50,612 nt of DNA from an uncultured Gammaproteobacteria bacterium (lineage in GTDB: Bacteria; Pseudomonadota; Gammaproteobacteria; Arenicellales; JAANXG01): positions 1 through 50,612 of the forward strand of contig CALZGZ010000182.1 of assembly GCA_945787105.1 (NCBI GenBank), in the 5' to 3' direction. Position numbers and translations under genes: made by a program. This document shows positions 5,326-38,903 of the stretch, in pieces (position 1 is the first letter of the stretch; each line of letters starts with the position of its first letter). The notes under the pieces are model-generated. The model did no database searches. It saw only the letters and a program-made list of their open reading frames with translations, and was not told where the DNA came from.

Positions 5326-6060
5326 TCACATCCATATCATAATATGAGAACGGTTGTCATTAACGGTCAGGCGCTTGACAATCAATTCGCTCTCGAGATT
5401 TTCATCTCGCGCCATCTCGCTTAATTCCTCTCCACTGAAGTTGAGCAAGCCCATTTTGCGTCTGAGGTCCGCGTATTGTCCAAATTGTGCTCGCCAGAGA
5501 AACTTAACTGTTTGCAAGAACATATGTTCTCGAAACGTGGTGCGGAGAACGCTGTAGACATCCTCCAGCAAGCCGGTATCAACCAGAATATCGGCGATCA
5601 AAAACCGTGACTTAGGTTCCGCGACGCGCTTGACGGCCGCCATCAAACGCCGCACGTCGTTTTTCTCCTGGTAGTATTGGATCACGCTCAGACAGATTAT
5701 TTTGGTGAATCGTTGCTCGCCGAGAATCGATAGGTCTGTATAGTCCTCGCCAAGTTGCTCAACCTGGGCGTTGCGGAAGCCGGCTAAACGTGAACGACAT
5801 TGCCGAACGTACTTGGAAGACACATCCACACCGCACACTTTGTCTACTTTGGGAGCCAATGCCTCCAGCAAGTGCCCGGGTCCGCAACCGATATCCAAAA
5901 TTCTGTCCTCTGCGGAATAGTCCATAAGCCCCGCACTGTTTTCGAGAAACACGTTTACATTGTGGCGGAGAAACTCATCATCAAACGTAGATTGATCAGA
6001 CCAGAAACGAGCCCATACGGAGTTATCCGAAAACTTGCCGGGTGTCGTAGTCACAATCAA
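5326..6060 (-). CDS. Class I SAM-dependent methyltransferase
   Basis: ILDIGCGPGHLLEALAPKVDKVCGVDVSSKYV motif I and motif II layout. Confidence 0.88.
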   Translation of the reverse strand: MIVTTTPGKFSDNSVWARFWSDQSTFDDEFLRHNVNVFLENSAGLMDYSAEDRILDIGCGPGHLLEALAPKVDKVCGVDVSSKYVRQCRSRLAGFRNAQVEQLGEDYTDLSILGEQRFTKIICLSVIQYYQEKNDVRRLMAAVKRVAEPKSRFLIADILVDTGLLEDVYSVLRTTFREHMFLQTVKFLWRAQFGQYADLRRKMGLLNFSGEELSEMARDENLESELIVKRLTVNDNRSHIMIWM

Positions 6061-6313: not shown

Positions 6314-7453
6314 GTGTTTTCAACACGTTCCAATCTGCAGGCAGTGGTGGGTGACTTTCGCATCGATGAGATGATGCGCTATAGCCTGTTTGTGCCGCGG
6401 CTCTACAACCTATGCAAGTCGCTGGGGTTTGAGCCGGGAAATATCATGCCTTCCCGGGCGTTCTGTTCCGACGAGAATCAGGGCTATCCGATTATCCTGA
6501 TTACGAAACATTTCGGCACCTTCCCCTTCAACCATGGTATCGTCGGCGGCATCGTTGCCACAGACCGCCATGGCCCGCATGCCAGTCACGGCAAGGACCT
6601 GGTGATCATCCAGGCCAGTCACGTTGGTTATGATCCGGATACCAAAACCTTTGGTACCTATCGACGTATCCAAACAGCGAACGATGCCACCACGATGAGC
6701 TGCGGCAAGGTTGCTTCCGTAATTGAGTGGTACCAGGGCGAATACCGTTTCGCCCAAGAGAATATCTATCTGCGCCGACAAGGAGAGACCTATCTGGTCA
6801 CCATCGATAATCAATTGCTAAACGACGACCGCGATGAGGGGTTGTTTCTGCAACTGGATCGCATGGTCGAGCTCGACGGTGGCAGTACGGTACCAGTGCA
6901 GATGCACAGCACCTCTCGCACCTACCGGGCCAGTTCCGGTTTCCACGCGGCGTTGCCGGCGGAAGTCTGGCCACACGACGGCCGGATGAAAATCGGGCGC
7001 TATCTCGGCCCGGAACTGTTCACCTTCCGCCGCGTCATCAAGGGGGATATCGAGGGCCGCAGTCACCTGGAACAGAATCTGATTCATCCAATGCCTTGGA
7101 TCGTGACCTCGGCCGAGCCGATGTTGGTTGCGGCCCAAGTCAACACCCAGGCGGAATTCGATCGTACGTTTCGCACCATCGTCAGGGAGAAGCACTATCA
7201 AAATAAAAAGGTCCTATTCATCTCCTGTATCAGCATCGATATCTCGCCGCGGGAGGGACAGCTATTCCCTCTTACCAAAGGCGTACCCTGGGCGGCGTAT
7301 ATACAAGATGGTGCGGGTGGCTCGCGTACCCTGGAACAGGATGAGATTATCGGCCTCCTGCAAGAGCAGAGTGCGGACAATCCTGACCAGATCGATCTCG
7401 AAGACGCCATCGACGACATGGAGCAGGCGCAGGAGATCAAGATTGAGGTTTAA
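6314..7453 (+). CDS. LCIB-like (theta-type carbonic anhydrase fold) protein
   Basis: PSRAFCSDENQGY, FPFNHGIVGGIVATDRHGPHASHGKDLVIIQASHVGYDP and TTMSCGKV resemble the LCIB C/H/C zinc-site layout (C51, H103, C130). Confidence 0.68.
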   Translation: MFSTRSNLQAVVGDFRIDEMMRYSLFVPRLYNLCKSLGFEPGNIMPSRAFCSDENQGYPIILITKHFGTFPFNHGIVGGIVATDRHGPHASHGKDLVIIQASHVGYDPDTKTFGTYRRIQTANDATTMSCGKVASVIEWYQGEYRFAQENIYLRRQGETYLVTIDNQLLNDDRDEGLFLQLDRMVELDGGSTVPVQMHSTSRTYRASSGFHAALPAEVWPHDGRMKIGRYLGPELFTFRRVIKGDIEGRSHLEQNLIHPMPWIVTSAEPMLVAAQVNTQAEFDRTFRTIVREKHYQNKKVLFISCISIDISPREGQLFPLTKGVPWAAYIQDGAGGSRTLEQDEIIGLLQEQSADNPDQIDLEDAIDDMEQAQEIKIEV

Positions 7454-7683: not shown

Positions 7684-8217
7684 ATGCAGAAAATCGTATT
7701 TGGGCTGCGTTTCAATAACATTCGCGGCGATATCTATGGGGGGATAACCGCAGCGGTTGTGGCGTTACCGCTCACCCTGGCGTTCGGCGTTTCATCTGAC
7801 ACCGGGCCGCACCCGGAAGCGCAGCTCTCTAAACAAGAAGAGGAACTCATGCGCGAAGCGGGCGGTCGATTACTGCTATTTCACCTCAGCGGACCAATGA
7901 GCTTCGGCGCCGCTAAGGGCACTACGCGCCGCCTGGCCGGGTTCGATCAATACCACATCCTGCTCATCGATCTAACCGATGTGCCACAGGTCGATTTTAC
8001 ATCTTCCCGCGCCATCGACGATATGGTGCATGACGCAGTGGGCAGAGGCGGGCATGCTTTTCTGGTCGGTGCACACCCGCTAGTGGTCTCCATGCTGACT
8101 CGGCAAGGTGCCCTGCGGTTCGTGCCCGAGGATCACCGTTACCAGGATCGATTACCCGCGCTGCGGCACGCCGTGAAACTGATCCAGGAAAAGGCCGCCG
8201 GTGAAGAAGAATCGTAA
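7684..8217 (+). CDS. Internally deleted SulP protein: N-terminal SulP segment joined to C-terminal STAS domain
   Basis: MQKIVFGLRFNNIRGDIYGGITAAVVALPLTLAFGVSS is the normal SulP start; it continues directly into EAQLSKQEEELMREAGGRLLLFHLSGPMSFGAAKG...(STAS). The permease core is absent. Confidence 0.82.
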   Translation: MQKIVFGLRFNNIRGDIYGGITAAVVALPLTLAFGVSSDTGPHPEAQLSKQEEELMREAGGRLLLFHLSGPMSFGAAKGTTRRLAGFDQYHILLIDLTDVPQVDFTSSRAIDDMVHDAVGRGGHAFLVGAHPLVVSMLTRQGALRFVPEDHRYQDRLPALRHAVKLIQEKAAGEEES

Positions 8218-36875: not shown

Positions 36876-38903
36876 TCAGAATATTAGATTCATCATTCCC
36901 AGCATTACCACCAAAAACAAGATGGTCATAATGCCGCCGGCACGCATGTAATCGGGTACGCGATAACCCCCGGGCCCCATGATTAAAGCGTTTACCTGGT
37001 GTGTTGGAATTAGAAACGAATTCGAGGTTGCCAGCGCGACCGTCAACGCAAATACCGCTGGATCGGCGCCCACGCCCACGGCGATGTTGACCGCCAGCGG
37101 CACCAGTAGCACCGTGGCACCGACGTTGGACATCACCAGCGTAAAGAACGTGCTCAAGATCGCGATCGCTGCCTGCAGCACCCACACAGGCACGCTGCCA
37201 AGCCACGATAAGGTCTGCTGGGCGATCCAGGCGGCGGTGCCGCTGGTCTCCACCGCAATACCCAGGGGAATGAGACTGGCAAGCAAGAAAACCGTTTTCC
37301 AACTCACCGATTCGTAGGCTTCTTCGATGGACAGGACACCGGACAGGATCATGCCCATGGCGCCGGTCAGCAGGGCCACGGACAAACGAAGGTCGGTGAA
37401 CAACACCAAAAACAGCGCGACACCGAAAAACAGGGCAGCCCAGCCGACCTTGTTGGGACGCTGCTCCTCGTGAGGAAATTCCGTGGTCACCACCACGAAA
37501 TTACGGTCCTTTTCCACGCGAGCCAGCGCGTCCCAAGTCGTATGTACCACCATGGTGTCGCCGGCCTGTAACGGCAGATCACGGATCCCCTCGCCTTCGC
37601 GCAGGGTTTCACCGTTGCGGTAAAGCGCTACCATGGCCAGCCCGGTGGTCTTGCGCAGCCACACATCACGGGCACTCTTGCCCACCATTTGCGAGCCGGG
37701 TGGTATGACTATTTCCGCGATCCCCGCTTTGGTTGCAGCGAGGGATTCGGCAAACACCTTCAACGTGTTGCGCTGTACTAACTTATAGGTCTCGACAAAC
37801 AATTTCAGATGTAGCGGAGATGCCACAATTCCGAGCACCATGCCCGCCTCGAAACCCACATCTCGCGCCAACGCACCCGGACCGACGCGGATTTCGCCAC
37901 CACTGCGACGGGTAGCGATCACGCGGATGCGAGACTTGACTTCTACCTCGTCTACCAGCTTGTCAACCAAGGGACTCGACGCGGGCACGAACACCTCGAA
38001 CAGGGCATAGTCGATCCCATACACCTCCTGGAAATAGGCCATGGCATTTGAACCGGTAGCGCCTTCCGTTTTGCGGACAGGCAACACGAAACGACCGGCC
38101 ACAACAAAATACAAGATGCCAGTGGCCACGAGAGCCAGACCGATCGGCGTCACCGAAAACAAGGACCACATGTCCATCTGTTGTTCAGCGGCAAGCGCCC
38201 GATTCGAATTGCGTATCAAGTCATTGAGCAATATCAACGGACTGGACCCCACCATCGTAATTGTGCCACCGAGGATGGCGCAAAAACCCATCGGCATCAG
38301 CAGCCTCGACATGGATATCCCTGAGCGCGCCGAAATACGCGACACAACGGGCAGAAACAACGCCGCGGCGCCCACATTTTGCATAAACGACGAGATGATA
38401 CCGACGGTGCCGGATATGATCGGGATAATCCGGCCCTCGGCGGTTCCTCCGATATGCAGAATAAACGCCGCTACTCGACTCATGACACCGGTCTTATCTA
38501 AGCCTGCACCGATAATCATTACCGCGATGATCGAGATCACCGCGTTGCTGGAGAAACCATCGAACAGGTGCGCAGTAGGAACCAGTGCTTTTTCGAGACC
38601 CATCACCGGCGCCAACAGACTGGTAAGCCCCAACAACACCATGATGGTGGCCGCGGCCACATCCACGCCGACGATCTCGAACGCGAACATATAGATGGTG
38701 AACAACAAAATTGCGACAACCCAAGCGATTTCCACGGTGGGAACCGTGAAGGCCATGAAGCTAGCGGCTAATCCAAAGATAGCAACTGCGATGATCTGTT
38801 TGGGAAACGTGGCGGTGCCGTCAGACGTTGTTGTTGCACGTGGGGAGCTTTTGAGACCCAGGGATAAGGACGCCTCGAGCGGTGGGTTTGTCTGCTTGCT
38901 CAT
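36876..38903 (-). CDS. SLC13/DASS-type permease with central TrkA-C (RCK_C) domains
   Basis: TM half, then two RCK_C-like units (GSQMVGKSARDVWLRKTTGLAMVALYRNGETLREGEGIRDLPLQAGDTMVVHTTWDAL), then TM half with VMSNVGATVLLVPLAVNIA and NSFLIPTHQVNALIMGPGGY. Confidence 0.94.
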   Translation of the reverse strand: MSKQTNPPLEASLSLGLKSSPRATTTSDGTATFPKQIIAVAIFGLAASFMAFTVPTVEIAWVVAILLFTIYMFAFEIVGVDVAAATIMVLLGLTSLLAPVMGLEKALVPTAHLFDGFSSNAVISIIAVMIIGAGLDKTGVMSRVAAFILHIGGTAEGRIIPIISGTVGIISSFMQNVGAAALFLPVVSRISARSGISMSRLLMPMGFCAILGGTITMVGSSPLILLNDLIRNSNRALAAEQQMDMWSLFSVTPIGLALVATGILYFVVAGRFVLPVRKTEGATGSNAMAYFQEVYGIDYALFEVFVPASSPLVDKLVDEVEVKSRIRVIATRRSGGEIRVGPGALARDVGFEAGMVLGIVASPLHLKLFVETYKLVQRNTLKVFAESLAATKAGIAEIVIPPGSQMVGKSARDVWLRKTTGLAMVALYRNGETLREGEGIRDLPLQAGDTMVVHTTWDALARVEKDRNFVVVTTEFPHEEQRPNKVGWAALFFGVALFLVLFTDLRLSVALLTGAMGMILSGVLSIEEAYESVSWKTVFLLASLIPLGIAVETSGTAAWIAQQTLSWLGSVPVWVLQAAIAILSTFFTLVMSNVGATVLLVPLAVNIAVGVGADPAVFALTVALATSNSFLIPTHQVNALIMGPGGYRVPDYMRAGGIMTILFLVVMLGMMNLIF

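Follow-up and report, generated by a model that had tools for sequence, protein, structure and literature searches.

The LCIB/LCIC theta-type carbonic anhydrases (theta-CAs; Pfam PF18599), familiar from the machinery with which algae concentrate CO2, are represented by solved structures of PtLCIB4 (5B5Y/5B5Z/5B60), 6KFS, CrLCIB (5K5W), and CrLCIC (5B5X). Theta-CAs are placed in diatoms and green algae by a review (PMC7215798, Table 1) and have been termed highly restricted (PMC13098186); prokaryotes were included in one survey's count of theta-type genes (PMC10880623). Here, we describe an LCIB-family protein encoded at positions 6314–7453 (+) of a 50,612-nucleotide stretch of contig CALZGZ010000182.1 (the window), from an uncultured gammaproteobacterium. 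The protein is probably a soluble, cytoplasmic zinc CA of the LCIB/theta type that helps to supply an autotrophic bacterium with inorganic carbon. It shares with LCIB/LCIC the Pfam family, the whole-chain fold (template modelling score up to 0.72 by target), the Cys/His/Cys motif with its conserved Asp and Arg, and an apparent role in carbon supply. In contrast to the algal proteins, it is bacterial and presumably cytosolic, there being no plastid, and comprises 379 residues versus 198–248 in the solved chains; its clade is linked to bacterial BicA, DAB, and Mrp genes, and the locus holds no second, LCIC-like gene.

The DAB system (DabA, PF10070, with DabB) is similar in that it couples beta-CA-type chemistry with NuoL-like proteins in chemoautotrophs, and it adjoins LCIB in five of 80 loci, but it belongs to a protein family other than LCIB, and DabA was not found in the window genome. 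BicA, a SulP bicarbonate transporter (6KI1/6KI2), is the best match for a remnant adjacent to the window gene and for most full-length SulPs adjacent to LCIB in relatives; however, none of the SulPs tested reaches the strict NCBIfam cut-off (best 853 versus 880 bits), and the transport core is missing from the window copy. CsoSCA, the alpha-carboxysomal CA, is likewise a beta-CA-like enzyme serving RuBisCO, but of another family. The literature searched, which did not extend to the primary LCIB structure paper, holds no description of bacterial LCIB beside BicA, DAB, or Mrp genes. The LCIB family is already known; our results suggest that its bacterial clade tied to uptake genes is a carbon-supply part that this literature does not describe.

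Family membership and fold

The open reading frame (ORF) initiates at GTG, and relatives share this start position, mostly as ATG. A preliminary description of this DNA had called the product LCIB-like, an identity now borne out by a Pfam cut-off, a fold search, and invariant Cys/His/Cys plus Asp/Arg residues. The LCIB_C_CA model (PF18599) matches residues 26–135 at 27.0 bits (cut-off 25) and detects 59 of 61 relatives at E ≤ 0.001; none of the NCBIfam models scanned matched. Chance occurrence of the Cys/His/Cys motif is ruled out by this score, by the 59 relatives, and by the fold search. A dN/dS of 0.165 between the window genome and a sister genome indicates purifying selection. Promoter and terminator scans performed no better than chance.

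Two AlphaFold models, computed from two overlapping alignments of which the first was smaller, reached predicted local distance difference test (pLDDT) values of 82 and 84 and a predicted template modelling score of 0.83. Searching the PDB with the second model returned all eight LCIB-family chains (PtLCIB4 wild type and mutants, 6KFS, CrLCIB, and CrLCIC) as the top eight matches, with probabilities of 0.99–1.00, while the remaining matches fell below 0.2. The first model likewise ranked the LCIB family at the top. Confident PDB matches are thus confined to LCIB-family structures, in agreement with the fold proposed in the preliminary description, and sequence and modelling together support the window protein as an LCIB-family member.

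The predicted zinc ligands lie where that description had placed them: C51 in SRAFCSDE, a motif that also contains R48 and D53 (codons at 6455–6472, +), H103 in QASHVGYD (6620–6622, +), and C130 in MSCGKV (6701–6703, +). They were assigned via motif and topology rather than residue-level superposition. In the second model, C51 directly follows strand 44–50, H103 lies within strand 95–107, and C130 sits at the N-terminal edge of helix 131–150. This strand/strand/helix placement of Cys, His, and Cys is what a beta-CA-type zinc site should show. An alignment of 61 relatives revealed R48, C51, D53, H66, H86, H92, H103, C130, and D165 as invariant. Two divergent paralogs, ~30% identical, retain H103 and C130, which are invariant across 67 sequences when such paralogs are included. 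The full-length one of the two (L037, 3384–4490, −), located near the main LCIB copy and without a Pfam match, retains C51, D53, H103, and C130 and lacks R48 and H86.

The protein could instead be a non-catalytic, or conditionally active, structural or regulatory component of a carbon-uptake system. The invariance of the predicted ligand and dyad residues in the 61 relatives and the retention of H103 and C130 in the paralogs suggest selection for catalysis and make that role quite improbable.

Association with inorganic-carbon uptake genes

A scan of GTDB representative genomes identified 151 loci encoding LCIB relatives, the best 80 of which were kept for locus counts. In six-frame scans, PF18599 is not sensitive enough to detect this clade, having matched only the window genome among 399 from the phylum; the class-wide genome survey (below) therefore relied on the clade's own profile. 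The best 80 carriers are largely chemoautotrophic Gammaproteobacteria and Nitrospirota and include Nitrospinota and Thioalkalivibrio paradoxus; no relatives were found in viral contigs or plasmids.

Within 5 kb of LCIB, SulP genes are present at 19 of the 80 loci, Proton_antipo_M genes (NuoL/Mrp/DabB type) at 11, and DabA at five, with any of these at 27. The LCIB–SulP adjacency first noted at the window locus is enriched across bacterial genomes: among 50 of these carriers, 14 have a SulP ≤5 kb from LCIB, where 0.55 would be expected (P about 2e-15). At nine of the 13 loci with a full-length neighbouring SulP, Nitrospirota and Nitrospinota included, at least one is best matched by the BicA model. 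These BicA-best SulPs score 386–853 bits, all under the strict cut-off; the highest scorers (846–853 bits, in L037, L049, and L051) are BicA-like rather than certified BicA. Coincidental adjacency, with SulP serving sulfate, would fit the general sulP type of the upstream window SulP, a type that is the only one at L022, L071, L074, and L077. The observed excess over expectation and the BicA-best loci in separate phyla render this explanation very unlikely. On the LCIB protein tree, SulP adjacency is gained or lost at least 14 times and Dab/Mrp adjacency at least eight times, so the association recurs in varied orders and orientations rather than as one inherited block. That LCIB repeatedly neighbours BicA-type SulP, DabA/DabB-like, and Mrp-like genes in different lineages and co-occurs with RuBisCO (below) supports the inorganic-carbon unit that the preliminary description had proposed.

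At L029, MnhB, MnhC, three antiporter-type subunits, LCIB, and a BicA-like SulP are encoded in this order on one strand with short gaps, and at L030, L033, and L034, LCIB lies 89–97 bp downstream of NuoL-like genes; DabA is present at L003, L030, L034, L047, and L070. Such arrangements favour an energy-coupled, one-way CO2 hydrator, modelled on DabA on DabB or CupA on NDH-1, in which LCIB would dock on a membrane protein, either of the Mrp/NuoL type or a SulP, and trap CO2 as bicarbonate. We consider this mechanism rather unlikely: alongside DabA, LCIB would be an additional CA rather than the subunit that hydrates CO2, membrane neighbours are missing from many loci, and the window genome lacks DabA and an intact BicA. 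It is conceivable, if speculative, that antiporter subunits of the Mrp/NuoL type and a transporter of the BicA type form a membrane CO2 trap, in which LCIB would be the subunit that hydrates CO2 or a close partner. This trap, clearest in L029, would join NDH-1/Cup and DAB as a third type of energy-coupled CO2 uptake, mainly in autotrophs without carboxysomes.

Other genes also recur at these loci. A protein of 121–155 residues is encoded a few kb from LCIB at L030 (7773–8198), L034 (7659–8021), and L070 (9519–9986), all three of which also encode DabA; in L034, this protein matches CaMKII_AD (PF08332), a Pfam family that includes iota-type CAs. A small protein is encoded between LCIB and the BicA-type SulP at L037 (7157–7642) and L049 (7224–7649), and in L049 it contains a RuBisCO small-subunit domain (PF00101, 41.5 bits). 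A LysR-type regulator gene lies near LCIB at L005, L027, L049, and L051, adjoining the BicA-type SulP at the latter two.

Co-occurrence with carbon fixation

LCIB is carried by 25 of 369 genomes sampled across the class, the window genome counted. By counts that ignore relatedness, RuBisCO is encoded by 20 of the 25 carriers versus 166 of 344 non-carriers, and, among genomes ≥90% complete, by 18 of 20 versus 147 of 294 (P=3e-4). Of the GTDB carriers tested, 35 of 50 were RuBisCO-positive. Those without RuBisCO include Nitrospirales, Nitrospina, and Desulfobacteraceae records and also some incomplete metagenome-assembled genomes; Nitrospirales and Nitrospina are known for the reductive tricarboxylic acid cycle. 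At L122, L123, and L124 (from G410, G314, and G228), the LCIB gene carries internal deletions or lacks an N-terminal portion; RuBisCO was not found in these three genomes, G228 being only 72% complete.

Carboxysomal CsoSCA is encoded by three of the 20 RuBisCO-positive LCIB carriers versus up to 64 of the 166 RuBisCO-positive non-carriers (P=0.048). In G340, G393, and G359, RuBisCO or CsoSCA genes are found on the LCIB contig at a distance of about 8–12 kb. The window genome (4.8 Mb, 97% complete) yielded no bacterial microcompartment shell proteins (PF00936). The low CsoSCA count and this negative result led us to reject LCIB as a carboxysome component. The same genome encodes one RuBisCO large subunit, flanked by a small-subunit-like ORF, CbbQ/CbbO-like ORFs, and a LysR gene, as assigned by eye from the translations; the adjoining small-subunit-like ORF points to a form I enzyme.

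Many carriers, such as Thioalkalivibrio paradoxus, oxidise sulfur, and the carbonyl sulfide (COS) hydrolase of Thiobacillus thioparus is a beta-CA of clade D (PMC13098186). A substrate of COS or carbon disulfide (CS2) rather than CO2, as for some beta-CA-fold enzymes of sulfur oxidisers, nevertheless appears highly improbable for LCIB, given the Nitrospirota and Nitrospinota among the carriers, the bicarbonate and CO2 uptake neighbours, and the different CA family.

SulP genes of the window

The window LCIB stands alone, preceded by a divergent methyltransferase gene (5326–6060, −). The preliminary description had it flanked by two SulP genes, and the distances given were correct: one SulP ends at 1704, 4.6 kb upstream, and a STAS ORF starts at 7684, 230 bp downstream. 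The SulP context is real, but the downstream ORF is no intact SulP, its transport domain having been lost, and the upstream gene is cut by the contig start.

The downstream ORF (7684–8217, +) is a BicA-type SulP remnant, in which 41 N-terminal residues are fused in frame to STAS and the transport core is missing. Pfam detects STAS only, and the BicA NCBIfam model matches in two stretches; against the PDB BicA chains, residues 7–41 match the start of 6ki1 and residues 36–167 match the STAS domain of 6ki2. At the sister locus L002, whose LCIB is the closest relative (91% identical), the SulP remnant is truncated in another way, so decay or misassembly in both genomes is possible. Relocation of the BicA core was considered and rejected, as a search of the window genome found no second SulP transport domain. 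Between the window and sister genomes, the STAS remnant has no stops and a dN/dS of 0.30, a value that would fit constraint and recent loss alike. Comparison with the lower LCIB value indicates that LCIB has been maintained although its SulP neighbour is broken. A SulP fragment also lies directly downstream of LCIB at L113 (6673–6990, −), again a decayed SulP beside an intact LCIB.

The upstream SulP/STAS gene (1–1704, +; PF00916 and STAS), which lacks its 5′ end, accounts for the single SulP transport domain detected in the window genome. Its best NCBIfam model is TIGR00815, not BicA. The 5′ part is present at the end of a sister-genome contig (G001:C158). A long insert (~residues 93–218) splits the two halves of its transport domain. 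Further downstream, a gene at 36876–38903 (−) is related to a CitMHS/SLC13-like transporter cluster that is also found near LCIB at several loci, among them L005, L074, L077, and L079.

Proposed function

In the proposed CA, Zn2+ would be held by C51, H103, and C130, with D53 and R48 nearby, and would accelerate the interconversion of CO2 and bicarbonate. Imported inorganic carbon would most likely be equilibrated near its entry point, because relatives encode LCIB beside BicA-type transporters, DAB-like CO2-trapping genes, and Mrp-like cation antiporters. For the window genome, the most useful direction would be from bicarbonate to CO2 for RuBisCO, since with a form I enzyme and no carboxysome, imported bicarbonate needs cytosolic dehydration; where there is no carboxysome, a free cytosolic CA would short-circuit none. 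In carboxysome-bearing relatives, LCIB could recapture CO2 instead. Among described members of the family, PtLCIB3 and PtLCIB4 seem constitutively active (PMC9614477).

Several observations weigh against a CA function in carbon supply. The Pfam score is marginal, falling to 22 bits, below the cut-off, in a six-frame whole-genome scan. Sequence searches of the PDB with the window protein and with a 61-member profile retrieved no LCIB, and identity to the solved LCIBs is only 10–13%; assignment to the family therefore depends on the Pfam model, the fold, and the motif. In the second model, pLDDT is below 50 at residues 72–87 and about 60 at residues 51–60, which makes the predicted site geometry tentative. 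The BicA beside the window LCIB is broken, without a complete transport domain, and at roughly two in three of the 80 loci no neighbour of this kind lies within 5 kb, many of their contigs being short. The window genome also encodes one beta-CA, so LCIB is not the sole candidate CA, and the activity of algal LCIB/LCIC is itself unconfirmed (PMC10096703).

The conserved bacterial LCIB clade spans chemoautotrophic lineages, and its genes are physically linked to genes known for bicarbonate and CO2 uptake. Should they be active, these proteins would add one more CA to the inorganic-carbon toolkit of non-carboxysomal autotrophs, would offer simple bacterial systems for probing the role of LCIB, which is unsettled in Chlamydomonas, and would provide parts for carbon-supply engineering.
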